Below are positions 12,666 to 53,563 of a stretch of 53,563 nucleotides of DNA, in pieces. The DNA is taken from positions 1 to 53,563 of the IMG/VR virus record IMGVR_UViG_3300006128_000015; one strand, given 5' to 3'. A program made the translations under genes and the position numbers. The notes below the pieces were generated by a model. The model made no database searches. It had not been told where the DNA came from and saw only the letters and a program-made list of their open reading frames with translations. How positions within the stretch are numbered: position 1 is the stretch's first letter; the number at the start of each line of letters is the position of its first letter. This stretch comes from a virus.

Positions 12666-12695
12666 CCCCCGGTGTTAGCGCACCGGGGGTTTTTT
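12666..12695 (+). terminator. Rho-independent terminator of the left operon
   Basis: A 9-bp GC-rich stem (CCCCCGGTG / CACCGGGGG) with loop TTAGCG is followed by six T. It lies between the convergent left operon and the minus-strand structural genes. The minus strand has no T run after the hairpin, so it looks unidirectional. Confidence 0.9.
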
Positions 12696-15600
12696 ATTGT
12701 TCATCATACTCAGCGCGTACGTCGTAGTATCGCTTGTTGAACCGGCTGAAAATACGTTCTTCCCGGTCGCTAAACATTTTGGCTCGTTCTTTGCGAACCT
12801 GCGGGTCTTTCACTGCTTTAAGCATTTGCGCGCGGGCCCGGCTGAGTTCTGTCAGCTGTGTGCTAGCCATTTGGTAGGCCCCCAACACACGGGGGTCAGT
12901 CTCGAATGGGTACTTCTCTTTAGATTCCCGGAAGGCCAACGGTTCCTCTTTGCGTTGGTTGAGTAGTGCCTCGAAGCTAGGTACCCCCTCGGCGGTGTTT
13001 TTGTAGTAAGCAGCCATGGGGGCATATTCAGCACCTTGGCCAATGAACCCCTTAACCAAAGGCAGGCGTTCGGCTAGGGTCTTAGTGTCTTTATCTTTGC
13101 CGCTAGCAAAGTCGTCTATCTGCTTAGCGAACTGAAATGCACCGCCGCCATAACTCTCGATGAGGTGCTTGTAGCTCTCAGGGTGCAAATCAACCAGACC
13201 CGGCACACTGCCAGAACCGAAGGTTAGGTCGTTTACCTTACCCGCCAGCTCTTTATAGAACTCCGGTGTCCCTTCACGCCCCGATGCCGACGCAGCCTTA
13301 GTCTCCTTGTACTGATCCTTATAGATAGGCGAGTCAAAGAAATTACGGTTAGCCGCCAGCTGCGCGAAAGGTGCCACTAACGTAGGGGTGAGAGATGCGG
13401 CAATCTGGGTCCCCGTTTTACCGCGCGGCAGAGGGACCGGCGACAACAGTTCGCCCCATCCCCTAGCAACATCGGTAAGCGCAGCGCCCATATGGATAGC
13501 ACCATGTATGTGATTGGTCGCGCCATAGCCATACTCAGCCATTTTCTCACCCAGATAAAGGTAGGGTGTCGTGATGAAGGCCGCTGGCACCTTGATATAC
13601 TGGTCCGACTTATGGCCGTACCGGAGTATATAACTGTATAGTTTATCGTGGTCGGGAACATCCATCCAGTTAGGACGACCATCTTTATCATCGTCGTCAC
13701 TACCCATAGCAATATTCCACGCAGCAAGCATAGCACCCAGTGCTATCTGCGAGGCCATCAACTTCCTACCAATAGGGCTCAGTGGCATCTTTGCTGCGAT
13801 GCGTAGGGTATTAACCTTGGCGGTGGCAAACCAGTACAAGGCACCAAGCATCGGCCCCCGCTCGCCCATACGGCTAGTGTTGATATAGGAGTTGGCAGCC
13901 ATGTAGGCCGCTTCTTTCTCACTCATGCCGGTATCAAGTGCGGCCTTATATGCCGCCAGACGCACGCGAAGCTCGCCCATACGCACGAAGTTCTCTACGG
14001 CACCGAGGACAATCTTGGCCCGGTCTTTGCCAATAGCGAGCATATCACCTTGGTCACGCTTGGACATACCCTCCAGAAACTTCTGGTAGTGCTCGGCGGT
14101 ATCCTCAGCGGTGCGGAATGCTGTGTGGCTTGATGCACCGCCACTATCCAGCATTTGGTCAATAAGAAGCATAGTATGCGCTTGCGTGTCGGACTTCGGC
14201 TCGCGCTTCCAGATATGGTTCCACAGCGCGCCAGTAAGGTCTTTACCCGGGCCCCACATGGGGTTTAGGTTCTTGCCTACCTCTTTAGCATACTCCGTAT
14301 TACCAAAGGCAGGGCTGCTCTTGTCACCCACGGCCAGCTTGGCGTTCTTTAGTGCTTCGTCGGTGTCACGAATAATCATACGATCCAAGAACAGCGGACT
14401 GCGCTGGACGTTCAAAGACCGGAATACCGCGCCCCACTTGTTGACGACCCCCATAAACTTACCCAAGTCTTGGGGGCTTAGGTTCTCGAACATGCGCTTA
14501 AGCTGCGCACCCGCCTCGGTAGGCTGGAAGTCTAGGTAATGTGTGTTGCCATTGCGCTTAACGACGAGGTAGTCATCTGCTTCCTTGCGCATGTTAGACC
14601 GGATAGGGATACCGTCAGGATACTCTACACGCTCGCTGGGAATAACCCGCACCTTGGGGTTAGCATCGGTGTATGCTCTGACCACGTCCTTATATAGATC
14701 GGGTTCGGCTAACACATTCTCCAGCAGCTTCTGCCCAACCTCGTTCTTGGCGACACGTTGGGAGAGGGCCTTCGCATCTGCGATAAGGTTGATTGTGGGG
14801 CTGAACGGCATAGAGCCGCGACCCATGGCCTTACCTATAACAGCGGGATTGATACCGAGGTTCTGCCGGAATGTGGCCTCGTCGTGGGGGTTCTGGTCCC
14901 CGGCGGTATACATATCGCCATCTAGGGCGTGCCCCTTCAGCGCCGCATAGTTAGGTTGAGCTTTGCGCAGCTCGTCGGCCTGTTGTTTGGTGAGGAGCCC
15001 AGACTTAACGTACTCGTTCTGCGTGTAGTCGCGTAGAGCGTCATGCAGTTTGGCCGCCTTCTCAAGCGTGGGAGTCATGCCGTATTTATCGTATACCGCA
15101 AGGATACCCTTTGCCTGCGCGTCGGTGAGGCCAGAGCCACTTTCAAGGAACCGCGAGTTGCGCTCACCTACGATCTTATTACGGTCCACGGCACCGCGCG
15201 CCCACAGGTACATGTCTAGATCGGAGAGATTGACTTTCAGCGCCGCGAGCCCTTTAAACAGCGGGTCTACGTAGTCGCGGTCAATCTTAGCGGTCATACC
15301 GTTCTTCTTGTTTTTGACCAGTTCCGCTACAGCGCGCACCGACATATCGAACGGTAGCCGCGTAACACCGTACGCCTTAGCCAGCCAGCGATCCACGCTA
15401 TTAGATGCTTCCAAGTCGAAGACGTTCTTGGTCTTCTCGTCGGTAATGAGTTTCTGCAGCTTGGACTCGTTCTCCGCGATAGCGCCAAGCGTAGCATCCA
15501 CAGAACTGGTGGGCCCCTTCTTGCGTAACTCATCGCGCAGAGCTTGCACTTCTTCATCGTGGGCCCCCGGCCCGGTACCGCGTTCGACAGATGGGCCCGG

Positions 15601-18600
15601 ACGGGCTTCGGTTGCTTCTCCGATCTCGCTTGCGGCGCGGTCTACAACCGACATAATCTTTTCGACATAGTCTATCGCGGGCGCGGCTTCCGCTTCGGCC
15701 TTGGGCCCCTTACCGAAGATGCTCTTAACCGCGTCAACAAACCGCTGTAGCAGCGTGCGCGGCTGAGGCTCAGCCTTTGTAGGTTTCGGTGTAAGCTCGT
15801 CAATAACCTTGCGGAACTCAGGGTTAGTGTAAACCTCCGAGGCAAACTCGTGCGCATCGGTAAACCCGTAGTGGGCCTTCATCTCCTCAGGCGCAAGGAA
15901 CTCGAACAGCTTCCACAGGTGCTGCAGCTCTTTACCGATTGGTGTACTGTTCTCGATATGCCAGCTAGTTAACCCATGCACGATTTCATGCAGTGGGATA
16001 TGATCCAGTGTCATCTGCTGATTGAGGTACACCGTCTTAGTGCGCGGATCGTAGACGCCTTCTAGATTAGGGACGTCTTCTAGGCGTTCGCCCTCCCTGC
16101 GCGCCACAAGCCTGATAGTATCCGAGTCAACTACCAACACGCGCATATCAGGCGCAACAGCCAGAATACGTTGGGCAATCTCCGCAAGCGGGCCACCCCG
16201 GTTGATAATATCCTGCAGTACCGCGTGCGCACTCTGTGTCTCTTGGGCCACCCGAAGCGAGTGCTGCGCCGACTCCGTACGCTCCCCGGTAACCAAGTCC
16301 GTTGCAAGCCTCGGGGCCATAGGAGTTTCGACCCGCAAGGCTGCTTTCTGCATGTCGCGCTCGCGCGCGGTTATCTCACCAGCCTTATATGCAGCATCAA
16401 TCTGCCGCAGTTTCTCTTGGCGCGTGGCAACACGGGCTTGTGCTTCCCTACCCGCTGCGTTGGCAATATCTGACCGAGCGGCATCCAGTGCAGCATTACC
16501 TTGTTCGATAGCCGCTTTGAGCTGCGCCTTTTCTTTGGGGGCCGTGGCGTTCTGGAGTTGCTCGGCCTTGTCGTTGACGTCGGCCTGAAGACTAAGCACC
16601 TTGGTCCAACGGGCTTGCTGTGAGGGAGGCAGTGCATTGAGGTCTTCTTTCGACCCCGGCACGCGCATCATGTTGAGCACTTCACCCACATCTTGGTCGG
16701 ATACGAGGTTGTTATTCCGTAGGGTATTGAGCTGGCTGGTAACTTTTTGCTCATCCTGCATACCCTGAGTAAGCTCAGCAGCACCCTCAACCGGGCGGCC
16801 CATTTGGGTACCCATCATACCCTTGCGGGTTTCGTTCACGCCGCGCGCTACACCGGGGGTAACCTTGGTAATGGGAACAGGGGGGACTTCTTCGGCGGGT
16901 GTAGGGGAAGGAATGACTTCTTCGGGGGGTGCAGCACCAGCACCAGCACCGCCCCCAGCCGGAGTTAGAATAGGGGTTTCCGTAGTGGGCTTAGTAACCG
17001 CAGTCTCTTTTACGGTTTTGCTAGGCGGCGCTTCAGGTGCACCTTCTGTAAGGGCGGCGGCCTTGGCTTCGAGATACTTATTGAACGTACCAGCCCACTT
17101 AGGGTCGCGCGCAAATGCCTCGCTCTCGGGTGTCATCCCGAACTTCTTTAGCGTAGCCTCGATGCTGGCGATTGTTTCGTGTGGGTTTGCAGCTTCAGGC
17201 ACTTTCGCGGGTGCCGCCACGGGCACCCCAGTCGCCTCCGCCCCAGCGGGCTTTTGTGCGGGTATACCCCCCGCCGCAGGTTCTCCCGTGACGCCTAAAG
17301 GATGCCACTCTTCCAGCGGGCCTTCGCGCGGGGGGTATGTACCCGCACCGATACGTTGTTCTAGTTCTCCGCTGGGCCCAAACACGTCATTCAACCCGGC
17401 TGCGCGCCGTTCATGGGTAAGCAGTCCCATGAGCTCATCCTGCGTAAGCGGATCAAGGCCGCGCGCGGCGAGCTCTTTTTGCGTGGTGTGCAGTCGCTCC
17501 AACGGGTCCCCAGTAGTCTGGTCCAATATACGTTGGGCGATAGGTAGGCGGTCTTGCAGCCGCTGGGCCTGTATCAGGGCATCGACCGAAGTTTTTGCGT
17601 TTTCTGAAGCCACTAGCTGGCGCAGCTGGTTAATGTCTACGTGCTGGCCTACAGCCGCATCCCGCTGTTCTTGTGTGATATCCCCACGTTGGAATGCTTG
17701 ATTATACAGCTCAACCATACCTCGGTTGTACTGCACCATTTTACCAAACCGGAGTTTCTCTTCCGGTGTCATGTTCGGATCAAGCCCGTTGGCACTGAGG
17801 GCGCTCGAAAGCATGCCCTCTTGGTTCCCGGTACCTGTAAAGGTTTCCGGGTGTGCGGCTACGGCCTGAAATACATTTTGGCGCGCATTAAACGCATCTG
17901 TAGCCGCAGCCTGTTGAGCGTTTTGTTGGAGGAGTTCGGGAGACACTCCGGGAGCGGGCTCGCCCACTGTCACGCCGGGTTGCGCTTTTGCCTTGGCTTG
18001 TTCGGCCATGTAGTCCGTTACAATGGACTTGCTCTCAAGCCACACCCGCAGGCGTGGGTCTGATACGTTATCTACACCACCTTGCGCAAATTCATTTTGG
18101 GCCTGACGCAGACGCAACTTACTCGCACGGCCAGCCATATCCGATACATAGTCAGCCGCGCCCGATACGTTGCCTTGAGACAGCGAGCTGGTGAGCTTGT
18201 CCGTTGCTTGGTTGATTAAGTTAGTATGCTTTTCGGTGTCGTCGCCCGCAGCCGCCTCTAGGCGCCCCCTAATCATATCCTGACTGAAAGCATCAGAGAG
18301 GTGGCGCTCACCCACACCCGCATTCATCTGCCCCGTCTCAAAAACCGCGCCGAGGTCCGAGAGAGCACTAGCGTACTCTGCAGGAGACGATGCACCCGCC
18401 GTGAATCCGGTTTTGTTGGCCGTAGCGGCCTTGTCGGCGGGTGCTCCCTGCTCCGTCTCCGCGCGGGTATCCCGGGCATTACGTAACCATTCCGCGCCGC
18501 CGTGGAGAAGGGCGCCACCACCAGAAGTAACGCCGCCCAGAATAGCACCGGATAGGGCCGACTCTGGTACACCCTGCCAAACAGAGCGTGTAGGGTCGTA

Positions 18601-19380
18601 GTTCTGCTGTGCGACTATATTTTCGCCTAGTGTGGAGCCACCCATTAGCGCACCCGCGCCGACAGCATGCGCCCCAACTTCTCCGGCAACGCGCGCTGCG
18701 CCAGTTAGGCCCTTAGTAGCCGCCCCAGCGAGCCTCTCCCCGGGGTTAAGCAGCCCGATAATCCCCTGCACCCCGGCGTTTTCAAACCCAGCGCGTTCTG
18801 CTTCGGCGTCGCTTTTGCCTTTAGCTACTGCCTCGTCGTGTGCTTCTTGGTAGCCCTGCGCCGCGAAGATAGGCGCTACACCCGCGCCGCCAGTAAGAGC
18901 TCCCGCCGTGATTATGGGTACAAAACCACCCACCCCGCTCGCGACCTGTTCCGCCAAGTTCGGGTTACTCACCGCGTGTCGAGCCGCATCGGCCCGAAGT
19001 TGCGCCGCAGCTTTCGCTGCTAGGGCTTCTTGCTCTTTATCTTGACCTGTAAGGCGGTCTATCAGGGTGACGGGAGTAGGGATATATTCACTGAGTTTCT
19101 GCGCACCCTGTCCGGCGGCAGCTAAACCTGTCTCCAGCCCGCTAAGCGCGGAACTACCAAGCCGTTTCGCTTCACCCCAAACCCCAGTGTCTTGTGGCTT
19201 AGCCGGTTGCGGGGCGATCAACGGGCCTTGGTCCGGCTGCGGGGCAGTAGGCTGCTGCGGCACTCCCATATTGTAATAGGTATGCGCTACATAGGCGATA
19301 GCTTGGTCTTGCGTGGCGCCGTCGGGGGTATTGACGCGATACACCTTGCCATCAGGCCCCGTGACATTAAATGCTGGCAT
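12694..19380 (-). CDS. giant polyvalent/ejected virion protein with HExxH metallopeptidase motif
   Basis: The 2228-residue protein is the last gene of the virion block. The N-terminus (VTGPDGKVYRVNTPDG) is a motif common in phage internal proteins. Gly/Ala-rich hydrophobic stretches at about residues 155-300 could insert in membrane. A long Pro/Ala-rich linker lies around 680-830. H1131-E-I-V-H1135 with a downstream EFASEV is a gluzincin-like metallopeptidase motif. The last 900 residues (RSLNVQRSPLFLDRMI, SYINTSRMGERGPM) are of the large polyvalent type. The position matches T7 gp16-like internal proteins, so ejection into the host is the likely fate. The start is the ATG at 19380. Confidence 0.85.
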   Translation of the reverse strand: MPAFNVTGPDGKVYRVNTPDGATQDQAIAYVAHTYYNMGVPQQPTAPQPDQGPLIAPQPAKPQDTGVWGEAKRLGSSALSGLETGLAAAGQGAQKLSEYIPTPVTLIDRLTGQDKEQEALAAKAAAQLRADAARHAVSNPNLAEQVASGVGGFVPIITAGALTGGAGVAPIFAAQGYQEAHDEAVAKGKSDAEAERAGFENAGVQGIIGLLNPGERLAGAATKGLTGAARVAGEVGAHAVGAGALMGGSTLGENIVAQQNYDPTRSVWQGVPESALSGAILGGVTSGGGALLHGGAEWLRNARDTRAETEQGAPADKAATANKTGFTAGASSPAEYASALSDLGAVFETGQMNAGVGERHLSDAFSQDMIRGRLEAAAGDDTEKHTNLINQATDKLTSSLSQGNVSGAADYVSDMAGRASKLRLRQAQNEFAQGGVDNVSDPRLRVWLESKSIVTDYMAEQAKAKAQPGVTVGEPAPGVSPELLQQNAQQAAATDAFNARQNVFQAVAAHPETFTGTGNQEGMLSSALSANGLDPNMTPEEKLRFGKMVQYNRGMVELYNQAFQRGDITQEQRDAAVGQHVDINQLRQLVASENAKTSVDALIQAQRLQDRLPIAQRILDQTTGDPLERLHTTQKELAARGLDPLTQDELMGLLTHERRAAGLNDVFGPSGELEQRIGAGTYPPREGPLEEWHPLGVTGEPAAGGIPAQKPAGAEATGVPVAAPAKVPEAANPHETIASIEATLKKFGMTPESEAFARDPKWAGTFNKYLEAKAAALTEGAPEAPPSKTVKETAVTKPTTETPILTPAGGGAGAGAAPPEEVIPSPTPAEEVPPVPITKVTPGVARGVNETRKGMMGTQMGRPVEGAAELTQGMQDEQKVTSQLNTLRNNNLVSDQDVGEVLNMMRVPGSKEDLNALPPSQQARWTKVLSLQADVNDKAEQLQNATAPKEKAQLKAAIEQGNAALDAARSDIANAAGREAQARVATRQEKLRQIDAAYKAGEITARERDMQKAALRVETPMAPRLATDLVTGERTESAQHSLRVAQETQSAHAVLQDIINRGGPLAEIAQRILAVAPDMRVLVVDSDTIRLVARREGERLEDVPNLEGVYDPRTKTVYLNQQMTLDHIPLHEIVHGLTSWHIENSTPIGKELQHLWKLFEFLAPEEMKAHYGFTDAHEFASEVYTNPEFRKVIDELTPKPTKAEPQPRTLLQRFVDAVKSIFGKGPKAEAEAAPAIDYVEKIMSVVDRAASEIGEATEARPGPSVERGTGPGAHDEEVQALRDELRKKGPTSSVDATLGAIAENESKLQKLITDEKTKNVFDLEASNSVDRWLAKAYGVTRLPFDMSVRAVAELVKNKKNGMTAKIDRDYVDPLFKGLAALKVNLSDLDMYLWARGAVDRNKIVGERNSRFLESGSGLTDAQAKGILAVYDKYGMTPTLEKAAKLHDALRDYTQNEYVKSGLLTKQQADELRKAQPNYAALKGHALDGDMYTAGDQNPHDEATFRQNLGINPAVIGKAMGRGSMPFSPTINLIADAKALSQRVAKNEVGQKLLENVLAEPDLYKDVVRAYTDANPKVRVIPSERVEYPDGIPIRSNMRKEADDYLVVKRNGNTHYLDFQPTEAGAQLKRMFENLSPQDLGKFMGVVNKWGAVFRSLNVQRSPLFLDRMIIRDTDEALKNAKLAVGDKSSPAFGNTEYAKEVGKNLNPMWGPGKDLTGALWNHIWKREPKSDTQAHTMLLIDQMLDSGGASSHTAFRTAEDTAEHYQKFLEGMSKRDQGDMLAIGKDRAKIVLGAVENFVRMGELRVRLAAYKAALDTGMSEKEAAYMAANSYINTSRMGERGPMLGALYWFATAKVNTLRIAAKMPLSPIGRKLMASQIALGAMLAAWNIAMGSDDDDKDGRPNWMDVPDHDKLYSYILRYGHKSDQYIKVPAAFITTPYLYLGEKMAEYGYGATNHIHGAIHMGAALTDVARGWGELLSPVPLPRGKTGTQIAASLTPTLVAPFAQLAANRNFFDSPIYKDQYKETKAASASGREGTPEFYKELAGKVNDLTFGSGSVPGLVDLHPESYKHLIESYGGGAFQFAKQIDDFASGKDKDTKTLAERLPLVKGFIGQGAEYAPMAAYYKNTAEGVPSFEALLNQRKEEPLAFRESKEKYPFETDPRVLGAYQMASTQLTELSRARAQMLKAVKDPQVRKERAKMFSDREERIFSRFNKRYYDVRAEYDEQ

Positions 19381-38389: not shown

Positions 38390-38644
38390 CTAGCAATCCC
38401 ACGCGCGAAGAGATTTATTGATGCGGCTATTAGGGTCGTTGGCTGTCTTCTTTGACGTCAACTTCTTCTTCATCCCGGACATCCGGGCACAGAATGACTT
38501 TTTGCGTGGGCCACCTTCGGGCTGCGGGGCCTTCAGCCCCGGCTTCCCCGGATTGGCCTTGTTGTAGGAGGCGCGGCCCTTGGCATTGAGGCCACCTTTC
38601 GGGTTCTTGCCTTCCTTACGGGTCCAAGCGGGAGTCTTAGCCAT
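38390..38644 (-). CDS. conserved small basic protein (DUF6321-like)
   Basis: The 84-residue protein reads TPAWTRKEGKNPKGGLNAKG, then SYNKANPGKPGLKAPQPEGG, then KSFCARMSGMKKKL and INKSLRAWDC. This pattern is very conserved in environmental phages and I recall it as DUF6321; the role is unknown. A conserved cysteine occurs at FCARM and at the C-terminus. The start overlaps the stop of the GT-like gene (TAATGG). Confidence 0.75.
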   Translation of the reverse strand: MAKTPAWTRKEGKNPKGGLNAKGRASYNKANPGKPGLKAPQPEGGPRKKSFCARMSGMKKKLTSKKTANDPNSRINKSLRAWDC

Positions 38645-39381
38645 TACGCAGCCTCCTCGACAGCCGGGACGATCATCGGATATAGGACATCATTACCAAA
38701 ATTACCGACGTACTCCTGCACGCCCATATGACCCAGCGAGATGGTGGGGTCGATCCATACCTCATAACCAAGCTCGCGGGCGCGGTCACAGAACAGGAAG
38801 TCTTCGCCTACGTAGCCTTCTTCGGTCAGAGCGAAGTCAAATAGGCAAGGTACCATGCGATTGGTTCGCGCATCGTGGTACTTCCACTCGGGGTGGGCTA
38901 CTGTCATATCCTCAAATACTTTGCGCTGTACCAGCATAAATGCGGTGGCTACGCGCTTGGCCCGTACTAGACCCATGCCGTTCATAGAGAGCTGGCCGTC
39001 CTCGTCGTGGTCGAGAGTAGCGATATAAACTTTGTCGGTGCTGCGAGTGCGAGGCACAGCAGCTACAATACCCATGTTAGGGTTCTCAGCCCACGCCATC
39101 AGGCGGAAGATATCTTCTGGCTCAAAGTTGATATCGGAGTCAACGAACAGCAAATAGTCACAGTGCGACTCAAGCAAATCCTGCACAAGCAGGTTGCGGG
39201 CGCGGGAAACGACCGAGCATCCGCAGATGCTCCCGATCTGGATATCAATACCGTGGGCAGCCGCCTTACCAGCAAACTGAGCCAACGACACCGCCAGCTT
39301 CAGAGATACCTTAAAATCATACGCCGGAAGAGCTACAAAAATGCTCTTACCAGCTAAGTCGAAACCCTTTTGCGCCCGCAT
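38644..39381 (-). CDS. glycosyltransferase-like protein (GT-A type), second copy
   Basis: The 245-residue protein has the plan of the left-operon protein at 3702: IFVALPAYDF at the start, R60-A-R-N (SRARNLLVQDLLESHCDY), and the metal motif D81-S-D83 in LLFVDSDINFEPED. Then ATAFMLVQRKVFEDM and GYVGEDFLFCDRARELG follow. Motif positions are the same as in the other copy, showing a common origin. Location among virion genes suggests late action, perhaps glycosylation of virion proteins or surface glycan modification. Confidence 0.85.
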   Translation of the reverse strand: MRAQKGFDLAGKSIFVALPAYDFKVSLKLAVSLAQFAGKAAAHGIDIQIGSICGCSVVSRARNLLVQDLLESHCDYLLFVDSDINFEPEDIFRLMAWAENPNMGIVAAVPRTRSTDKVYIATLDHDEDGQLSMNGMGLVRAKRVATAFMLVQRKVFEDMTVAHPEWKYHDARTNRMVPCLFDFALTEEGYVGEDFLFCDRARELGYEVWIDPTISLGHMGVQEYVGNFGNDVLYPMIVPAVEEAA

Positions 39382-40369: not shown

Positions 40370-41212
40370 TTATTTGTAGCGGAAGACAAGTCCCGCGTGC
40401 GGGCCTTTAGCTAGAGGCTTACCGGATACTAGCGCACGCCGCAGCGTGGGCATCTTCAAGCCGTAGTAGTTGAGCACCGCCGTCAGACTAGGAAACTCAG
40501 TATTAGTAGTCACTTCCATTACGGCTTTGCTCATCTTCAACTTAGACTCTTCTGTGTGCTGTTTGCCCAGCCAGTTCTGATTGCCTGTGTTGGCCTCCGC
40601 CAGCTTGCGGCGGTGTTCTTCGGTACGGGCGTGCCCCTTTGCATTCTGATTACCCTTAAGCGCTTCAGACATACGTTTCCGCGTCTCTTCAGAAGGCACG
40701 AACTTACCCCCGCGCCCCTCGGCCAAAACGCGCTGTACTTTAGCACTGATTTTGGCTTTAGTTTCTTCCGCGTGTGCTTTACCCCGGCGTGGCTGGTAAT
40801 CGGGGTCTTCATACCGCCGCTTTACACCGGCAGATATAGCCGTGAGCTCACTTTCTTTTTTGGGGCGTTCAAAATTAGGGTGCAGCTCTCTAGCTACCCC
40901 ACGCCACGGTGCACCCGACCGAAGCCCCGCGTTATAGCAACACGGTTGCCCGACATACTCTTGCAGCCAACGATCTTCCGCCGCTTGTAGGCTTGCTACG
41001 TCTGCGACTTCTTCCATGATCTCAAACTTAAAGCACTCCTCACCGTATTTATTCCATGCGGCTTGAAGATGCGGTGTATGATGAACCCCCCGCCGAAGTT
41101 TGCTGCGGTGTGTACGGAACCGCTCCTTCGAGTTGATGGTACTCCCCACATAAAACTTTTGGTTAACTATGTTGCGTATGCGGTAGATGACGGGGTGAGT
41201 GGATTTAGACAC
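40370..41212 (-). CDS. GIY-YIG homing endonuclease with NUMOD3-like repeats
   Basis: I take the GTG at 41212 as start because GGGAG lies seven bases before it; an ATG at 41248 is in frame upstream but sits in the -10 region of the promoter. The catalytic domain has PVIYRIRN, KFYVGS, R-x-x-H-R and YNAGL. DNA-recognition repeats of NUMOD3 type follow: SEETRKRMSEALKGNQNA, TEEHRRKLAEANTGNQNW, TEESKLKMSKA. A C-terminal helix-turn-helix-like part (SLTAVLNYYGLKMPTLRRAL) ends it. Its own terminator/promoter pair lies upstream, and the flanking genes are intact. Confidence 0.88.
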   Translation of the reverse strand: MSKSTHPVIYRIRNIVNQKFYVGSTINSKERFRTHRSKLRRGVHHTPHLQAAWNKYGEECFKFEIMEEVADVASLQAAEDRWLQEYVGQPCCYNAGLRSGAPWRGVARELHPNFERPKKESELTAISAGVKRRYEDPDYQPRRGKAHAEETKAKISAKVQRVLAEGRGGKFVPSEETRKRMSEALKGNQNAKGHARTEEHRRKLAEANTGNQNWLGKQHTEESKLKMSKAVMEVTTNTEFPSLTAVLNYYGLKMPTLRRALVSGKPLAKGPHAGLVFRYK

Positions 41213-41237
41213 AGGTAATCTCCCATTCGGTATAAGT

Positions 41238-41267
41238 CTTATATACAAACAACACCGAGTGGGTCAA
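41238..41267 (-). promoter_or_regulatory. sigma70-like promoter after the capsid terminator
   Basis: On the minus strand TTGACC (41267-41262) is followed at 16 bases by TATATA (41245-41240), or at 18 bases by TATAAG (41243-41238). It lies just after the capsid terminator and before the endonuclease gene, so it probably drives the endonuclease and perhaps the genes beyond it. Confidence 0.55.
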
Positions 41268-44693: not shown

Positions 44694-44877
44694 CTTGTTC
44701 CATTCGTTGCGCGGTGTCTGCAATCAAAGTATTCGCCATCAGCAAACCGCGATAAATGCCAGCAGCGTACTTATAGGCACCGAAATCCTCGGCACGGCCC
44801 ATAGCCGTATCTTGTTCGATTACCCTAAGTTCTTCTTGTATCTTGCTTGAAAGATACTGGAGTAGGTCATTACTCAT
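44683..44877 (-). CDS. conserved small phage protein (64 aa)
   Basis: The helical acidic protein (LLQYLSSKIQEELRVIEQDT, then YKYAAGIYRGLLMANTLIAD and RMEQDDD) follows the portal gene, its ATG overlapping the portal stop. This small gene is conserved at the same position in related phages, but its function is unknown to me. A head-assembly role is suggested by the neighbours. Confidence 0.75.
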   Translation of the reverse strand: MSNDLLQYLSSKIQEELRVIEQDTAMGRAEDFGAYKYAAGIYRGLLMANTLIADTAQRMEQDDD

Positions 44878-47468
44878 TCGTTATCCTCTGTTTGAGAGTC
44901 ATCTTCGTCAGGCTCTTGTGGTGCCTGCGCTTGCTGCGCCTGTTGGGCGTTCTGAAGTAGGTCCATGCCGTGTTGGTGGGCTTGTTGCTGTTGCTGCAGA
45001 CCGAGCTGGCTTGCCTTGTGCACGCTATCCCAGTTAAGTTGCGTGGACTTGTATGCCGCGTCGATGCCCGCTTGGAGGCCCGACATCTGGCTCTTCATGT
45101 CGATATTAGCCTTATCAGAGGCGATCTTGGCACCTGCTTGGAGACCCGCGATTTCCTTCGACGCTGCGATACGTTCTTTCTCAATCTCAACATGGTCGGC
45201 TTTAGCCGCTGCCTCAACAGCCAGCTTCTGCTTCTTGAGTTCGAGCTCACCCTGCTTAATCTGCAACTCTTGCTGCTGCATCTGGACGAGGGGGTCTTGG
45301 GCGGTCTGCTGGTTCTTCTGCTGCTGGGCCTCTGCTTGGTTTTTCTGAAGGAGCTGCTGCGCGGCGGCGGCGGCCAGACGCGATACCTGTACTTCGATAT
45401 CTGGGGACATCGGCGCGTTGGGTGCCGGATAAGGTACGCCCGCCTGCTCTTCGATCTGCCTACGATACTCGAAGGCCACATGTTCACTGACGTGAGCCGC
45501 CATAGCTGCCTGCATGGCCCCCGCATTAGGGTTCTGCCCCACAAGCTGCATGATCTTGGGGTCTTGCATAGCCGCCGTATGGACCGCAATATGTGCTTGG
45601 TGGTCCTGCTCAATGAACGCTTTGACCGGCTTGCCGTTAATGATGTCCATATTCTCAGACACAGGATCACACGGCTTCATATCATCGCCGTCCTTAAGCG
45701 GGACGAGCTTCTCGGCGTTCTTGATACCCAATACTTCGAGCATCTGGCGGTGCAGGAATGGAAGATTATAAAGCTGCGGAGCCGTCTGGGCGAGCTGAAG
45801 AACCGCCTGATACTGGACGATCTTCTGCGCCATCGTGGCGGCATTAGGATCACTGACCGGAATTACATCGACGAGGTCGTAGTCAGCCTTCTTGGCCTTA
45901 GAGGTAGCATTAACCGGGGTGTAGTCGTAATCCTCGGGGGAGTAGTCACGGATGATATCCCGTAGGAGACGAAACTCCTGTTTCATCGCGTAGTGGATAC
46001 GCGCCTGCACCGCGCTCATGGCCTTCAGTGTGCGCTCAAGAATTGCCAGCGTGGTACCCACGGGCGCTTGGCCCGACATATCACTAATCTGCATGTCGGC
46101 TGCACCGGCAAACCGACGGCCTTCCTCCACGATATTCTGAAGGAGCGCAAACAGAACCTGACTTGGCTCCTTATACGGCAGCGGCATGATATTATCACGC
46201 ATAGTACCGCTAGCGACGTCCACGTCGCGCCATTCTGCCGGGCTGATGGGCGTATCATCGCCCTTAACCCTCAGACCCTTAGTCTTGAAGCCGCCCGGAA
46301 GGTTACTGAGAGTGCCAGCATCAACAAGCTGACGAATAATGCTGGTACCAGACTTAGCAAAAGCACCGACAAGATGAATAAGGCCGAAAGCGTAGAACCC
46401 AAAGCCCGGAACGTACGAGTAGTGTACGAAATGATTGCGCTTGAGTTTCTTCTTGTCAGTCGGGTCCCAATTTCGGCGTATCGCCAAGATGGTCTGCGTA
46501 GATTTCTCAATAGTAACGACATAAGGAAGCGCAATCTCGTCCTCAGACTCATCTTTAGCCTCCTCATCATCGCCCAATACGAGCTCAACGTGCATCTCAA
46601 GGAGCTTAAAACGGTCATCTGTGGACGCCCTAAAGCCCATTTTCTCGGCAATTTTCTTCTCGATTTCGTCAAAAGTATCGACGGGGTCACCAAGGTCCAC
46701 ATCTCGGTAGAACCCCGCCGCCTGCAGGCGCCTAAGCTCATTAGGAGTCTTACGCATTACGTGGGTAATACGCGGCGACGTCTCCAACGAAGTGGCACCA
46801 TAGGGCACAACGACGTCTTCTGCAGGAACATACATTGATACCTGACGCCCCAAGGTGGGGTCGTAGTATACCTTCTTGAACGCGTTACCAGATAGACCCA
46901 GACCCCACAGCATGCGCTCATGCTCGGGGCGATACTCAACCATCCGGTCGGTAAGCTGGTAGTTCATGTCGTCTTGTACGCGTTTTGCGGCTTTGGTTAC
47001 CTGTGGGGTCTCTTCACCGACAATCTCTACGCGGACAGGCCCCTGTGCAGGGAAGGTCTCCATCATGGTCTCGGCCTGAAACTTAACCAGAGCCTCACTC
47101 AGAAGGGGGTGGTGCACACCACAAGCGCCCGGCCAAGGCTCGGTACGGTCTTCGACCTTCATACCAAGCAACTCAAGGCCGTCTACATAGGTCTGAATCC
47201 AGTCTTTCCGCGAGGACATATCGTCGTCGAAGTCGCCAAGCAGGTCACCGGCAAGCTCCGTAAGTGCGCCCTCGTCCATATCTTCAGCGAGGTTCTCGGC
47301 AAAATCATCGCCGTCCTCATCAGGGTCAATATGAAGCAGGTGATGGCCCGCAATACTCAAATCAACACTCTCGGGGTCCTCGATTTCAATTTCGAGCGCC
47401 GGTTCTTGGTTCAGATGGTCCGATTGCAGGCCAATAGGGGCTTGGTTAAGTGACTTGAAGACCGACAT
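44874..47468 (-). CDS. portal protein
   Basis: The 864-residue protein is of the large P22-like portal type. It has an acidic N-terminal arm (about 25-80), SRKDWIQTYVDGLELLGMK, TEPWPGACGVHHPLLSEALV, VSMYVPAEDVVVPYGATSLE and a helical domain (DYSPEDYDYTPVN). A C-terminal Gln-rich coiled coil from about 690 probably forms the barrel. It makes the dodecameric DNA gate at the portal vertex. Its neighbours, terminase on one side and scaffold on the other, give the standard order. Confidence 0.9.
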   Translation of the reverse strand: MSVFKSLNQAPIGLQSDHLNQEPALEIEIEDPESVDLSIAGHHLLHIDPDEDGDDFAENLAEDMDEGALTELAGDLLGDFDDDMSSRKDWIQTYVDGLELLGMKVEDRTEPWPGACGVHHPLLSEALVKFQAETMMETFPAQGPVRVEIVGEETPQVTKAAKRVQDDMNYQLTDRMVEYRPEHERMLWGLGLSGNAFKKVYYDPTLGRQVSMYVPAEDVVVPYGATSLETSPRITHVMRKTPNELRRLQAAGFYRDVDLGDPVDTFDEIEKKIAEKMGFRASTDDRFKLLEMHVELVLGDDEEAKDESEDEIALPYVVTIEKSTQTILAIRRNWDPTDKKKLKRNHFVHYSYVPGFGFYAFGLIHLVGAFAKSGTSIIRQLVDAGTLSNLPGGFKTKGLRVKGDDTPISPAEWRDVDVASGTMRDNIMPLPYKEPSQVLFALLQNIVEEGRRFAGAADMQISDMSGQAPVGTTLAILERTLKAMSAVQARIHYAMKQEFRLLRDIIRDYSPEDYDYTPVNATSKAKKADYDLVDVIPVSDPNAATMAQKIVQYQAVLQLAQTAPQLYNLPFLHRQMLEVLGIKNAEKLVPLKDGDDMKPCDPVSENMDIINGKPVKAFIEQDHQAHIAVHTAAMQDPKIMQLVGQNPNAGAMQAAMAAHVSEHVAFEYRRQIEEQAGVPYPAPNAPMSPDIEVQVSRLAAAAAQQLLQKNQAEAQQQKNQQTAQDPLVQMQQQELQIKQGELELKKQKLAVEAAAKADHVEIEKERIAASKEIAGLQAGAKIASDKANIDMKSQMSGLQAGIDAAYKSTQLNWDSVHKASQLGLQQQQQAHQHGMDLLQNAQQAQQAQAPQEPDEDDSQTEDNE

Positions 47469-47731
47469 TACTTGTTCCTCAGCGTAGCAGCATTGGTGTG
47501 GGGGTTATACTTATAATCACTTTTAGGTTTGCCCGACTTCTTGGACGCGCGGTCTATAGCCCGTTCTTCGGCAGTCATAGCGTCGCGCTTCTTCCCTTTG
47601 GCCGTGAGGTTGCCGTTAGGCTTCATATCCCCACGACCAATAAGCAAGGCTCGGGCAAGCCCTTCGCTACCAACCTGCGCTGTAAGGCGCGGCAACAACT
47701 CGTGTGCGCCAATATGAGCCCTAGTAACCAC
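47468..47731 (-). CDS. conserved small basic protein between terminase and portal (87 aa)
   Basis: It starts at GTG overlapping the terminase TAG (TAGTG) and reads HIGAHELLPRLTAQVGSEGL and ARALLIGRGDMKPNGNLTAK. It ends with a conserved basic region, AMTAEERAIDRASKKSGKPK, SDYKYNPHTNAATLR. An internal start at 47626 (MKPNGNL) would leave only the basic half. The plan is known to me from many phages, without function. Confidence 0.75.
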   Translation of the reverse strand: MVTRAHIGAHELLPRLTAQVGSEGLARALLIGRGDMKPNGNLTAKGKKRDAMTAEERAIDRASKKSGKPKSDYKYNPHTNAATLRNK

Positions 47732-49266
47732 TAATAAAACCCCTGCCCACGGTGGCTCTTGAAGTAACGCAATTCATCCGGTTCGTCTAGGTTAGTAGTA
47801 ATGTAACCGCCCTTACGGAACCTCATCATGGCCATACTTACAGTATCGGTGTAGTCGTCATGTTCAGCGCCGGGAAAACTGGCTACTTCTTCAATCACTT
47901 CTTCGGCCCACCGAGTAGCAGGGGCCCATACCCGTCCAGACGCAAAGAGGTCGCTTACAGCATTCAACCGGCTTATCTTGTCGTTGCCTCGGCTAGGAGT
48001 GAACTCCTGCACCGGAATACCCATCGACCGCATCTCGTAGATCAAAGGTGCGCCGGAAGCCTTCTTCTCGATTATCACGCTGTCCGGCTGCCATTCTTTG
48101 TACTCCTCGATGGCGCACTGCTTCAATGATGGGAACTCCATGCGGTCCCGAAAGGCGTTGAGGAGGATGATGTTGGCCTGTGGTGTACCTGTATCGTCGG
48201 GCTGGTAGAACACACCCCATGTAGTACACGCCGAATAGTCGGCGCGCTGGTGCTTCTCGAAAGCAGTATCCCATGCCTGCAGGATAAAGTCGCAGTTGGG
48301 TGGGTCGTCGCGGTCCCATATCTGCCACCATTCGCGCTTCACAATAGCGCTGGCATCCCCAGTCGGGTTTTGTTGGTACTGCGCCATCCACTTGGAATTA
48401 GGCAGTTCTTCTTTAAGGACTTCAAGCTCGGCCATCGGCCAAAACTCAGGCCACAGCGGGTTACCGCTAGGGAGGATGGCGGGAAACTCAATGACTTCCC
48501 ACTCGTCGCCGCCGCGCTGAGCAGCGGCCTTTAATACCTGTGCAGTTAGGTCTCGCTTCGACCATCGCGTCATAACGATGATAATTGCCCCACCCGGCTG
48601 CAAACGCTGCCGTGGACCTGAGGTGTACCACTCGTAAGTCTTGTCGTAGATGTCGGGGTTTACTTCAGCTAGCGCAGCTTCCTGTTCACTGTGAGGGTCG
48701 TCAATTATGAGAAGATCAGCACCTTTACCGGTAACTGCACCTCCCACACCGATAGCGAAGTAATCACCCCCTTTCGATGTATTCCACCGCCCGGCTGCCT
48801 TGCTATCCGTAGATAGAGACAAACCGGGGAAGACCCGGTGGTATTGGTCGGTATCGACCAGATTTCGAACCTTACGCCCGAATCCTACAGCAAGTTCTGC
48901 TGTGTGGCTAGTCTGAATTACTTTCTTGCCGGGGTATTTTCCGAGAAACCATGCAGGTAATAGGTAGGACGCAAACTCACTTTTTGTGTGGCGAGGCGGC
49001 ATGTTGATAATGAGGCGCTTACACTCGCCGCGAGCCACCCGTTCAAACGCTTCCGCCATCTTGGCATGGTGCCTACCCCCGATAAACGATGGCCACATCT
49101 GTTTGACGAAGCCAAGAAACTTATCTTGTGCCTGCTTAACCGCCTTCAGCTCTTCCAGCTTGTCCAGCTCGGCCAGCAGCTTCTCCTGCTCTGGTAGAGA
49201 CAAGAGGTGCAGTACCTTCGGGATATCCTTGATGGATATGTTGTCCAGCAGGGGGTTGGAAGCCAT
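47731..49266 (-). CDS. terminase large subunit
   Basis: The 511-residue packaging motor has an ATPase with Walker A MPPRHTKS (89-96), Walker B LLIIDDP (185-191) and MTRWSKRDL (232-240, a coupling-type motif). The RNase H-like nuclease has D333 (AWDTAF), E400 (VIIEKKASG) and an acidic HDDYTDTVSMA (469-479). It cuts and pumps DNA through the portal. The gene before it (49266-49631) overlaps by one base. Confidence 0.95.
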   Translation of the reverse strand: MASNPLLDNISIKDIPKVLHLLSLPEQEKLLAELDKLEELKAVKQAQDKFLGFVKQMWPSFIGGRHHAKMAEAFERVARGECKRLIINMPPRHTKSEFASYLLPAWFLGKYPGKKVIQTSHTAELAVGFGRKVRNLVDTDQYHRVFPGLSLSTDSKAAGRWNTSKGGDYFAIGVGGAVTGKGADLLIIDDPHSEQEAALAEVNPDIYDKTYEWYTSGPRQRLQPGGAIIIVMTRWSKRDLTAQVLKAAAQRGGDEWEVIEFPAILPSGNPLWPEFWPMAELEVLKEELPNSKWMAQYQQNPTGDASAIVKREWWQIWDRDDPPNCDFILQAWDTAFEKHQRADYSACTTWGVFYQPDDTGTPQANIILLNAFRDRMEFPSLKQCAIEEYKEWQPDSVIIEKKASGAPLIYEMRSMGIPVQEFTPSRGNDKISRLNAVSDLFASGRVWAPATRWAEEVIEEVASFPGAEHDDYTDTVSMAMMRFRKGGYITTNLDEPDELRYFKSHRGQGFY

Positions 49267-51103: not shown

Positions 51104-51122
51104 GCCTAACGGCGTGTTAGGC
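51104..51122. repeat. palindrome GCCTAAC-5-GTTAGGC
   Basis: 7-bp arms around GGCGT. The longest member of a family of CTAAC/GTTAG inverted repeats seen at least six times in the right 2.3 kb (also 51878, 52070, 52731, 52799, 53321). Confidence 0.8.
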
Positions 51123-51195
51123 CGATAAAACCTAACAGAATCAAAGGCTTGCGATTTATCTTGCTTTATGTGCTACGTTTACCCCATAAGGATCA

Positions 51196-51213
51196 TGCAG
51201 CGATGATGCTGCA
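51196..51213 (+). promoter_or_regulatory. leader hairpin before the 189-residue protein
   Basis: TGCAGC, loop GATGAT, GCTGCA: a 6-bp perfect stem about 12 bases before the ribosome site ATGGAGC. It may stabilise the message or regulate it. Confidence 0.35.
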
Positions 51214-51237
51214 CATTAACGTAATGGAGCAAACGAC

Positions 51238-51807
51238 ATGACTGTTACCACTAAGAAAGCCTCTAAGGCTGAAGTCGCCCGTAATCAAACGGCCAAGGCC
51301 CATGCGCTTGCCAATACTAAGGCAATCGAGGTTACATGGGAAACCGCCTACGATAACGTGGTGAAAGGCGTTGGTTCGGAATTAGGCGCGGCGCGCATTT
51401 TGGGTGCCAAGCTCAACGAAGAATTTGCTGCTGAGATGGCTGCTTTTCAGTGCCACTGGTCATCTTTCACCACGGCGAATTGCCGGACGGACAACGAAAA
51501 GGCTATCCTCGCCCGGATTGAAGGGCACCGCAAAGCGATTCAGGCCATTGCGGAAGCCAGGCTAGGAACTGACGCGCGGGATATTCCGTGGAGCCGCGCC
51601 AAGGCTGCGAGTAAGGAATTGTTTGGGATAAAGCGTTTGGAGGCGACGCCTAAGCCACTGGAAAGCCGGATCAAGGAAACGCTGATCAAGCTAGGCAAGG
51701 CCGGACGGAAAGAGGAGCGGCCCACTGAAAGCGAGTTTACGCTTTGCAGTGAGATTGAACGGTTGCTTGTGACCTATTTCAAGTACGATACCTCACAGCT
51801 TGGCTAA
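51238..51807 (+). CDS. hypothetical early protein (189 aa)
   Basis: The 189-residue protein starts at the ATG behind GGAGCAAACGAC. It is Lys/Ala/Glu-rich and largely helical: a basic N-terminus (TVTTKKASKAEVARNQTAKA), a middle with WETAYDNVVKGVGSELGAAR, and a C-terminal part (LIKLGKAGRKEERPTESEFT). No family is recognised. It has its own promoter region and a perfect terminator, so it is a stand-alone, probably well-expressed early unit. Its place next to the repeat-rich region makes a replication or regulatory role possible. Confidence 0.75.
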   Translation: MTVTTKKASKAEVARNQTAKAHALANTKAIEVTWETAYDNVVKGVGSELGAARILGAKLNEEFAAEMAAFQCHWSSFTTANCRTDNEKAILARIEGHRKAIQAIAEARLGTDARDIPWSRAKAASKELFGIKRLEATPKPLESRIKETLIKLGKAGRKEERPTESEFTLCSEIERLLVTYFKYDTSQLG

Positions 51808-51830
51808 TCACTTAGCTATCTAATCACCCG

Positions 51831-51861
51831 CCCCGCTAGGTTCGCCTAGCGGGGTTTTTTT
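51831..51861 (+). terminator. Rho-independent terminator with TTCG tetraloop
   Basis: A perfect 10-bp stem CCCCGCTAGG/CCTAGCGGGG with a TTCG loop is followed by seven T. It lies 24 bases after the stop of the 189-residue protein. Confidence 0.95.
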
Positions 51862-51877
51862 GTGCCTGCGCTCCGCG

Positions 51878-51893
51878 CCTAACGCCTGTTAGG
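51878..51893. repeat. palindrome CCTAAC-4-GTTAGG
   Basis: 6-bp arms around GCCT, directly after the terminator. Member of the CTAAC/GTTAG family. Confidence 0.75.
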
Positions 51894-51956
51894 TGATTAG
51901 CTAGTCCGCGCTTGAGCAGCACCTTGTATGTCTCATCCACCTAACCACCCACCCCG

Positions 51957-51982
51957 CCAACCAGCCCCGCCAACCAGCCCCG
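51957..51982. repeat. 13-bp tandem repeat
   Basis: CCAACCAGCCCCG occurs twice in direct succession at the GC-rich edge of the AT-rich array. Confidence 0.8.
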
Positions 51983-52037
51983 CGTTATGACAGTGTTCAA
52001 AAGTTGTTAAGCGGCGACGCCGAGCGGTGATGACAGT

Positions 52038-52566
52038 GATGTTATAATGTTAAGTGGATACGCAGCGACCTAACCAACGGTTAGATTGTTATACTGTTAT
52101 AATGTTAGCTGTTTTGGGGGTAATTTGAGGCTCCTAATGTTATAATGTGATATGTTATGAAACTAAGGTTGTTATAATGTTAACGTAACATTTGGTTCAA
52201 AACTAACCTAATGTTATATTGTTCATTCAAATGTTATTATCTTATCGATGAACATTAGATATGTAGACGCTAATCCTAATGTTATGTAAAAACGCATAAC
52301 AAATACCATAACATTAATCATAACATTATAAGCTACTGAAACTAAACGAAAAAACGGGTAATGTTATTTGTTATGTTTTTTTGAGGGTGCGCGGGCGATT
52401 TCCGCGTTTGAGGCACTGTGCAAGTGGAAGCTGAGCAGCCGTTGTAATGTTGAAAACCCCTATTATTATATTATTATATCATTACTACTACTAACACTAA
52501 GAAATCATTACGTTTTTTTCCGATTTCAAATGTTATTTTTAATGTTATGAAAAACCAAACATAACA
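52038..52566. repeat. AT-rich array of TGTTAT/ATAACA boxes (candidate origin or operator array)
   Basis: TGTTAT occurs 13 times on the plus strand (starting 52040, 52087, 52095, 52138, 52153, 52170, 52212, 52232, 52280, 52362, 52369, 52531, 52543) and four times inverted (52296, 52308, 52320, 52561). Most sit in AATGTTAT or ATTGTTAT context. The 12-mer GTTATAATGTTA is exact at 52041, 52096 and 52171. The region has no convincing gene and contrasts with GC-rich surroundings, as expected for an iteron-type origin or a cooperative operator array. Confidence 0.75.
52070..52084. repeat. palindrome CTAACC-3-GGTTAG
   Basis: 6-bp arms around AAC, inside the left part of the TGTTAT array. Member of the CTAAC/GTTAG family. 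Confidence 0.75.
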
Positions 52567-52624
52567 TTACCCCTCGCTGCGCTCAGCCTGCTTCTCTCCG
52601 CTGCGCTTCGCTCCACTCAACTCC

Positions 52625-52646
52625 GTTTGCAGACTACTCTGCAAAC
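52625..52646. repeat. perfect hairpin, 9-bp stem
   Basis: GTTTGCAGA, loop CTAC, TCTGCAAAC. No T run follows, so it is not a standard terminator. It lies between the TGTTAT array and the next promoter. Confidence 0.75.
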
Positions 52647-52660
52647 CGAACCCACATCCA

Positions 52661-52689
52661 TTGACCCAAGCTATTTATTGTGCTACTAT
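52661..52689 (+). promoter_or_regulatory. sigma70-like promoter of the right-end operon
   Basis: TTGACC (52661-52666), 17 bases, TACTAT (52684-52689). It lies 70 bases before the ATG at 52762. A CTAAC/GTTAG palindrome (52731-52745) lies between it and the start, about 35 bases after the expected transcription start. Confidence 0.6.
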
Positions 52690-52730
52690 AAAAGAAAAAA
52701 TCAGAGTACAGGGGGGCCGACCATTTCGGC

Positions 52731-52745
52731 CTAACGAGTGGTTAG
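52731..52745. repeat. palindrome CTAAC-5-GTTAG (operator candidate)
   Basis: 5-bp arms around GAGTG in the leader of the right-end operon. The position just after a promoter fits a repressor site or a small leader hairpin. Confidence 0.65.
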
Positions 52746-52761
52746 ATTTTAGGAGCGAACG

Positions 52762-52974
52762 ATGAAGCACAAGAAAGAGATTATTGACCCCGCCGACCCT
52801 AACGGGCGGTTAGAATTGGCCGCCGCCTTCGGCTGGCCTGCTGCATGGGATGCGTGCATTAAGGTGCTAACCGCACGAGAGGCAAAGGAGACCGACCGGC
52901 GCAAGAAGGTACGGCTGCGCCTGATGCTACTCAATGCACAAACCCAATACGAAGTAGTGACGAGCAACACCTAA
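52762..52974 (+). CDS. hypothetical early protein (70 aa)
   Basis: First gene of the right-end operon, with AGGAGCGAACG before ATG. The sequence IDPADPNGRLELAAAFGWPA and WDACIKVLTAREAKETDRRK is helical with a basic C-terminal half. A CTAAC/GTTAG palindrome (52799-52813) lies inside its coding sequence. No family is recognised. Its stop lies 15 bases before the next ATG. Confidence 0.7.
   Translation: MKHKKEIIDPADPNGRLELAAAFGWPAAWDACIKVLTAREAKETDRRKKVRLRLMLLNAQTQYEVVTSNT
52799..52813. repeat. palindrome CTAAC-5-GTTAG inside a gene
   Basis: 5-bp arms around GGGCG, coding PNGRL in the 70-residue protein. Its occurrence in coding sequence suggests the family is under selection or is a mobile or host-derived signal. 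Confidence 0.6.
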
Positions 52975-52989
52975 CAAAGGAGCAGACCA

Positions 52990-53166
52990 ATGACCGAGTT
53001 TAAGTTTAGCAAAGAGCAACTGGATGCCGTTGCCCTACTGAGAGAAGCAGGCTGTGCCGTGGTCGTGTTCGACCCTGAGGAGCTCAAGGGGGTCGAGGAT
53101 AAGATCGACGACATCGAGGAGCGCCTGATCGAGCTGGGTTGGGACGTGATCGAGTATTGGAGGTAG
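52990..53166 (+). CDS. conserved small acidic phage protein (58 aa)
   Basis: The ATG at 52990 has AAAGGAGCAGACCA before it. The 58-residue protein reads FKFSKEQLDAVALLREAGCA, VVVFDPEELKGVEDKIDDIE and ERLIELGWDVIEYW. The FxPEEL and ERLIELGxxVI elements are known to me from a small phage protein family without assigned function. The stop is two bases before the next ATG, so the genes are co-translated. Confidence 0.75.
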   Translation: MTEFKFSKEQLDAVALLREAGCAVVVFDPEELKGVEDKIDDIEERLIELGWDVIEYWR

Positions 53167-53167
53167 T

Positions 53168-53362
53168 ATGCACTGGTGTGTGCAGTGCGGGGGAGATGTC
53201 GCGCCTCGACGTGCAGACTTAGGTTACTTAACTTGCCTAACCTGTGGCGACCGCGAAGCAAGGAGCGTGAGGCACACCGTCGTGCCTATGAACAAGTCCA
53301 ACTACACAGTGATTACTAACCTAACAGAGTTAGCACAGCTGAACCCGAAAGGAGTGAGGTGA
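53168..53362 (+). CDS. small zinc-ribbon protein (64 aa)
   Basis: C4-x2-C7 (MHWCVQCGGDVAPRRADLG) and C23-x2-C26 (LTCLTCGDREA) form a zinc ribbon, followed by RHTVVPMNKSNYTVIT and LAQLNPKGVR. I recognise the plan from phage early regions. It may bind DNA or a host protein. A CTAAC/GTTAG repeat (53321-53333) lies in its 3' part. The next gene starts one base after its stop codon. Confidence 0.75.
   Translation: MHWCVQCGGDVAPRRADLGYLTCLTCGDREARSVRHTVVPMNKSNYTVITNLTELAQLNPKGVR
53321..53333. repeat. palindrome CTAAC-3-GTTAG inside a gene
   Basis: 5-bp arms around AGA, coding LTELA in the zinc-ribbon protein. Sixth clear member of the family. Confidence 0.6.
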
Positions 53363-53363
53363 A

Positions 53364-53563
53364 GTGGAAGCTAAACCAAGGGAACCGCCCGCAGTTCCGG
53401 AACTCCTCTGGCCCAAGTTAGTGGAGGGCTCGAAGACCTTCGCCGGATACGGATACGGATACAGAGACGGATACGGAGACGGATACGGATACGGAAACGG
53501 AAACGGAGACGGAAACAAAGACGGAGACGGATACGAAAACGGAGACGGAGACGGATACGGAGA
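53364..53563 (+). CDS. Gly-Tyr/Asp/Asn repeat protein (partial, runs off the window)
   Basis: It starts at GTG behind AAAGGAGTGAGGTGAA. About 27 ordinary residues (PREPPAVPELLWPKLVEG, then SKTFAG) lead into a dipeptide repeat of Gly followed by Tyr, Asp or Asn, with occasional Arg, Lys or Glu for Gly. I have seen such Gly-Tyr/Asp repeat ends in early proteins of other phages, with unknown role. The gene has no stop before the window end. Confidence 0.7.
   Translation, partial: MEAKPREPPAVPELLWPKLVEGSKTFAGYGYGYRDGYGDGYGYGNGNGDGNKDGDGYENGDGDGYG
53445..53563 (+). repeat. hexanucleotide coding minisatellite
   Basis: Nineteen full GGA-NAC hexamers and a partial one, with N mostly T, G or A, and three units replacing GGA by AGA, AAA or GAA. 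The plus strand is strongly purine-rich. Unit number may vary by slippage. Confidence 0.9.

Follow-up and report, generated by a model that had tools for sequence, protein, structure and literature searches.

The 53,563-base viral record IMGVR_UViG_3300006128_000015 carries near one of its ends an AT-rich island at 52040-52566 in which short TGTTAT boxes are densely arrayed, and we here describe this island, its counterparts in related phages, and the grounds for considering it a replication origin. The window, by which we mean the whole stretch of DNA analysed, is the entire IMG/VR record and is classed as linear; because the record is a linear fragment, the nearness of the array to its end carries no meaning.

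A dense box array in an AT-rich island

The window contains 28 copies of TGTTAT, of which 17 fall inside 52040-52566, thirteen on the forward strand (52040, 52087, 52095, 52138, 52153, 52170, 52212, 52232, 52280, 52362, 52369, 52531 and 52543) and four on the reverse (52296, 52308, 52320 and 52561). The 11 copies elsewhere in the window represent no excess, shuffled sequences leading one to expect 19.7 over the whole window. Within 700 bp around 52300 the commonest hexamer reaches 17 copies, as compared with a mean maximum of 4.2 for any hexamer, and none of 200 dinucleotide shuffles attains this value. An earlier sequence-only reading of the window had reported 17 boxes in about 530 bases, three exact copies of GTTATAATGTTA and four inverted boxes, and recounting bears out all three statements: the box number exceeds that of every shuffle, the GTTATAATGTTA copies begin at 52041, 52096 and 52171, and the inverted boxes occupy 52296-52325 and 52561-52566.

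The boxes are grouped in several ways. A triple tandem, TGTTATAC-TGTTATAA-TGTTAG, has 8-bp spacing (52087-52108, forward strand), three inverted boxes follow one another at 12-bp spacing (52296-52325, reverse strand), and a double box, AATGTTATTTGTTAT (52360-52374, forward strand), adjoins a central element, GTGCAAGTGGAAG (52418-52430, forward strand, with GCAAGTG at 52420), which is the window's copy of an element, (C)NGCAAGTGCA, lying between the arms in part of the relatives. Further right, an AT-rich tract with tandem ATTATTAT octamers at 52462 and 52470 (52457-52500) is a candidate melting region and lies inside the genome's lowest-GC 400 bp (52151-52550; GC fraction 0.30 vs 0.54 overall). 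The sole open reading frame of at least 60 residues wholly within the island is a 60-residue, TTG-start frame (52368-52550), in agreement with the earlier judgement that no credible gene lies there.

The flanking terminator, twofold GC-rich repeat and hairpin noted previously are all present. On the left, the island is bounded by the intrinsic terminator of a gene for a 189-residue protein (51830-51855, forward strand; an 11-pair stem, then a T run), followed by two copies, at 51957 and 51970, of the GC-rich direct repeat CCAACCAGCCCCG (51957-51982, forward strand). To the right lie a perfect 9-bp hairpin, GTTTGCAGA-CTAC-TCTGCAAAC (52625-52646), and, as the right border, an early promoter, TTGACC-17-TACTAT (52661-52689, forward strand). 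TTGACA-like promoters with 16-18 bp spacers occupy the same place in most relatives, a match of at least 10/12 being found downstream of 21 of 29 islands. A nucleotide search of 51200-53563 against annotated phages returned no match.

Conservation of place and layout

Relatives were collected via their terminase or DNA polymerase, the motif itself being left unused; at least 600 terminase relatives were among the matches listed in one scan, and 80 were fetched. Among those whose sequence extends far enough, many have their highest AT content 2.2-3.2 kb upstream of the terminase gene, in stretches where tandem and inverted boxes can be read. Near-complete relatives, found via the family A DNA polymerase (PolA), keep the order terminase, 2.5-3 kb, AT-rich island, early genes, PolA, SNF2 helicase and DUF927 protein wherever both ends are present. 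In total, some thirty related phages carry the same type of cluster at the same place, each with its own box sequence: TGTTAT, TGTTAC, TGTTAG, TGTAAG, TGTTCT, TGTTCA, TGTTCC, TGTTTC, TATTCT, ATTATTAT and ATAAGA all serve as boxes in one island or another. At a single syntenic place the layout is kept, and the box sequence varies by phage. Conservation of the boxes at this place, whose absence had been named as a refutation, holds for the position, for the arrangement in tandem and inverted order and for the AT-rich character of the DNA, whereas the exact TGTTAT is common to only some relatives. One near-complete relative, G002, has an AT-rich stretch at the syntenic place without evident boxes.

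A hexamer is repeated above the chance level given by shuffles in 24 of 24 islands tested, the top hexamer in a few of them being another repeat such as a dispersed palindrome. For several islands the position had been picked by eye, on the basis of the AT-rich stretch, ahead of the box statistics, and detection of clusters was therefore favoured; syntenic position and the element A described below are less affected. Among neighbouring boxes on the same strand, a spacing of 8-9 bp is commonest (38 of 69 pairs). Forward boxes tend to lie on the left and reverse boxes on the right, with a mean area under the curve (AUC) of 0.76 over 31 islands that none of 2000 permutations equalled, and the two-arm orientation is perfect in L028, L048, L066, L078, G001 and G022. 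In a few TGTTAG phages the AUC falls below 0.5, probably due to dispersed CCTAAC...GTTAGG palindromes that share the hexamer. The boxes are iterons in the sequence sense of the term: they stand in tandem, 8-9 bp apart, and mostly form two opposed arms across an AT-rich stretch.

Dispersed palindromes of the CCTAAC...GTTAG(G) type also occur in the window, at 51105-51121, 51878-51893, 52069-52084, 52730-52745 and 52798-52813. A second kind of element, short direct repeats, lies between terminator and box array in several relatives, of ATGATAGT type (L017, L025, L165), ACCAGTTCT type (L018, L028, L050) or ATACCTGTATC type (L073), and AATCTCGAAGTTTGAATATC is repeated beside the island in L034 (400-700).

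Most inspected matches from a motif scan of viral contigs were chance occurrences in AT-rich coding DNA, the match in L137 being real. The island was not recognised by eye at the corresponding place in the distant cultured phages DSL-LC04, 023Pt_psg01, HTVC023P, HTVC027P and Pag-Yong1, and a search of 40.9 kb of Rhizobium phage RHph_TM3_14A gave no AT-rich cluster comparable to it. Near an exonuclease gene of the distant marine phage 023Pt_psg01 (L143, 1500-1720) there are tandem and inverted TGTGCCAAGTGTGCCA boxes, possibly another origin of this style.

Additional elements within the islands

Two further elements recur. Element A, TAAGTNNTTGAT (on the other strand ATCAANNACTTA), is present in 26 copies distributed over 19 of 30 islands, as compared with 0.1 in shuffles, and typically stands just outside a double box. 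Its ATCAANNACTTA strand fits the consensus WATCAANNNNTTR of integration host factor (IHF), which is matched in 20 of the 30 islands against 1.6 by shuffles, suggesting that IHF binds element A sites. The second element is GCAAGTG, in many cases as CNGCAAGTGCA; 10 of 30 islands have it in the space separating the arms (2.4 in shuffles), in every case on one and the same strand. For DnaA boxes there is no enrichment, with 5 sites in the 30 islands where 3.8 were expected.

The same plan is realised in a cultured phage, Pseudomonas phage Rollin, with another box, ATATGCAA. Rollin has the same replication module, its PolA being about 34% and its PrimPol-DUF927 protein 28% identical to those of the window. 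Positions 200-700 of its circular record hold, in order, three forward ATATGCAA-type boxes, element A in its single copy in the Rollin genome, the centre, three inverted boxes at 9-bp spacing and an AT-rich run; 8 of the 29 TATGCA sites in Rollin lie inside these 415 bases.

Candidate box-binding proteins

Three proteins of the window had been put forward as possible binders of the boxes, and among these the PrimPol-DUF927 primase-helicase appears to be the best candidate. This 939-residue putative initiator (9630-12449, forward strand) gives a weak match to PrimPol of the archaeo-eukaryotic primase (AEP) type and a clear one to the DUF927 helicase (PF06048, E 2.4e-27). Its gene is present in 14 of 14 relatives examined, and a module of PolA, SNF2 and PrimPol-DUF927 is common to all near-complete genomes examined. 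The DUF927 helicase is homologous to Cch (5dgk) of the staphylococcal cassette chromosome mec (SCCmec) and to a pathogenicity-island protein (8tch), with E about 1e-8; the NCBIfam Cch1 model also matches the window protein (E 2.3e-14), but far below the equivalog cut-off. A search for DUF927 relatives in bacterial genomes found none. PrimPol-DUF927 fusions have been predicted to be replication helicases (PMC5862659). Cch, which contains DUF927, is related to Rep of SaPIbov1, and the Rep helicases of Staphylococcus aureus pathogenicity islands (SaPIs) bind origin iterons via a C-terminal domain, apparently as two hexamers (PMC7581432).

The second candidate, a 76-residue helix-turn-helix (HTH) protein, is encoded just before the primase-helicase gene (9337-9567, forward strand) and is near-universal in relatives. 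Its recognition helix, VSRQTVYNWF, is nearly constant across relatives while the boxes differ, and for this reason we disfavour it as the box binder. The third is the 189-residue protein encoded directly left of the island (51238-51807, forward strand), a fast-evolving protein; some of the relatives encode a homologue in the corresponding position. A search for its close relatives retrieved none, homologues being detected only by position and profile; the family has a confident all-helical predicted structure (pLDDT 83.5), and no fold match to this model was found. It is rejected as a general box binder because no homologue was found beside some islands. In L053, two genes of this type (16-537 and 1583-2110) flank one island.

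Interpretation of the island

We consider that the island at 52040-52566 is probably the replication origin of this phage, with a probability of roughly 0.7. Of the two functions originally suggested, origin or operator array, the origin is now the better supported, because the principal refutation test, an absence of box conservation at the same place in relatives, came out opposite; an operator array is less likely. The best reading of the locus is an iteron origin resembling those of SaPIs and other phage-inducible chromosomal islands (PICIs), which would be served by the distantly encoded PrimPol-DUF927 protein.

As a mechanism, we envisage that the PrimPol-DUF927 protein would bind the boxes via its non-helicase part, probably the C-terminal region, with one hexamer assembling on each arm. 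The AT-rich tract would then melt, aided in many relatives by DNA bending at the IHF-like sites, whereupon the DUF927 helicase would unwind in both directions, the PrimPol domain would prime, and the phage PolA would extend. Drift of the boxes would follow changes in the initiator and so make every phage's origin private. A stronger formulation, which we offer tentatively and think unlikely to hold in full, is that these islands form an undescribed class of bidirectional phage origin, in which a pair of inverted iteron arms, in many cases with an IHF site, loads two PrimPol-DUF927 hexamers in opposite orientation around a constant central GCAAGTGCA priming or melting site, and in which the iterons drift in the manner of an immunity type, such that each phage copies only its own DNA.

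Several observations weigh against the origin assignment or its details. The island lies about 11 kb from the PrimPol-DUF927 gene in the window, counted across the record ends, and about 15-21 kb from it in several near-complete relatives. A comparison of C-terminal similarity in the DUF927 proteins with box sequence revealed no clear covariation, among few complete genomes. The window's own array, with 13 forward and 4 reverse boxes, is irregular by the standard of the regular two-arm islands (AUC 0.77, an intermediate value), and its island contains only one-mismatch sites and no good copy of the IHF consensus; the window's only exact match, AATCAAAGGCTTG (51139-51151, forward strand), lies 0.9 kb left of the array. 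Finally, cumulative GC skew, advocated earlier as a check, does turn near the island, in agreement with an origin, and does so in seven relatives, where gene direction turns as well; because its minimum near the island falls where gene blocks diverge and its maximum where they converge, the skew is confounded by gene direction, is not diagnostic, and supplies no independent evidence.

Among other functions, a packaging start (cos or pac) is improbable, although it accounts for some features of the locus. On this reading the boxes would be bound by the terminase, IHF would introduce a bend as it does at lambda cos, and cutting or opening would take place in the AT-rich region; relatives have the terminase gene no more than 2-3 kb away from the island, GC-rich direct repeats adjoin the island, and layouts combining terminase sites with IHF are known from lambda. 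Yet it is the early and not the late genes that begin at the island, a pair of iteron arms enclosing AT-rich DNA is the plan described for PICI origins, and 17 boxes over 530 AT-rich bases in opposed arms exceed, to our knowledge, any known cos or pac site. We likewise hold it improbable that the boxes are a transcription control array on which a phage regulator silences or activates the early promoter at 52661. A sigma-70-like promoter does lie just right of the island in most relatives and the phage has HTH proteins, but as much as 620 bp separates the first boxes from the promoter, no other promoter of the genome shows box enrichment, and changes in the boxes are not accompanied by changes in the recognition helix of the core HTH protein. 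A centromere-type partition or maintenance site bound by the 189-residue neighbour is very unlikely, for although the window and many relatives have its fast-evolving gene immediately next to the array, several phages with the island have no homologue found at that place, one neighbour family accompanies different boxes (TAAGAA in L053; TGTTAG/TGTTAT in L165), and the scanned proteins showed no partition ATPase or integrase.

Genomic setting of the island

In the window, late genes run leftwards and early genes rightwards, the latter across the record ends. The late block includes the portal gene (44874-47468) and that of the terminase large subunit (47731-49266, reverse strand), which, as in relatives, starts 2.8 kb to the left of the array. 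On the early side, a 64-residue CxxC...CxxC protein (53168-53362, forward strand) is kept at this place right of the island in six relatives, and after further small genes the replication module follows with PolA (1183-3012, forward strand), a PD-(D/E)XK nuclease (5251-5922) and the SNF2 helicase (6242-7801). A GGATACGGA/GGAGACGGA repeat, reading GYGDGYG..., occupies 53440-53563; the record stops inside it, and therefore the assembly probably broke there and the true genome is larger.

Other features of the genome include two phrog_1574 (glycosyltransferase-like) genes, one in the early block (3702-4475) and one in the late block (38644-39381), a GIY-YIG homing endonuclease among the head genes (40370-41248), and, closing the late block, a 2228-residue protein that carries an LPD38 domain (12694-19380). 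Phage-specific palindromes precede many early genes, each phage having its own: CCTAACAATGTTAGG in L037, L048 and L053, CTAGA...TCTAG in L025, TTACTGTCAGACAGTAA in L028, TTCATACAGTATGAA in L073 and AAAAGGTAGNAANTTNCTACCTTTT in Rollin.

Significance and comparison with known origins

The replication origins of most environmental phages remain undescribed. A single place, a single layout and a conserved replication module come back repeatedly across this widespread group; we found no origin description for this group in the open-licence literature, although subscription journals may hold one. An origin type described mainly in satellites and in mobile or resistance islands would be extended to phages with their own polymerase, and the natural series of box sequences would let initiator specificity be read. 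The layout also offers a simple rule for locating origins in metagenomic genomes, and the cultured member Rollin is open to experiment. If satellites use the same kind of origin, box drift could help phages to escape origin capture.

Among known systems, origins of the lambda and P4 types do not fit. Origin specificity differs between related lambdoid phages, which is a likeness to the islands described here, but the iterons recognised by lambda O lie inside gene O itself, whereas ours form opposed arms in a non-coding island. The origin of satellite phage P4 (ori/crr) consists of short iterons, or boxes, with two separate sites needed, and its alpha protein is, like the candidate here, a fused primase-helicase initiator; in contrast, the window has a single box cluster, and its putative initiator is of PrimPol-DUF927 rather than alpha type (with a D5-like helicase).

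The SCCmec cch/cch2 origin comes closer: a 23-bp direct-repeat region contains its three iterons of 5 nt each (PMC7581432), which by calculation stand about 9 bp apart, a spacing similar to that seen here. Cch is, moreover, a DUF927 helicase homologous to the window protein. Unlike the window, SCCmec has only three iterons, these adjoin the helicase gene, and the experimentally tested Cch2 is not a DUF927 protein.

The nearest parallel is the pri-rep-ori region of SaPIs and other PICIs, exemplified by SaPIbov1 and EcCICFT073 (PMC6092414, PMC7581432). PICI origins always comprise two iteron sets flanking an AT-rich region (PMC6092414), and opposed iteron arms around an AT-rich tract are likewise found across the relatives, the window itself being less regular. 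In both settings the iteron sequence differs between elements, and the SaPI/PICI initiator is a self-loading helicase, DUF927-related in the cases of SaPIbov1 Rep and Cch, of a kind that is also encoded here. The differences are that the present islands belong to phage genomes with their own DNA polymerase, that the primase is fused as PrimPol, and that many members possess IHF-like sites and a central GCAAGTGCA element. Furthermore, the SaPI/PICI origin lies beside rep, whereas the origin proposed here is about 11 kb from the putative initiator gene; because this closeness to the rep gene fails, we regard the islands as PICI-like in plan and not as members of the PICIs.
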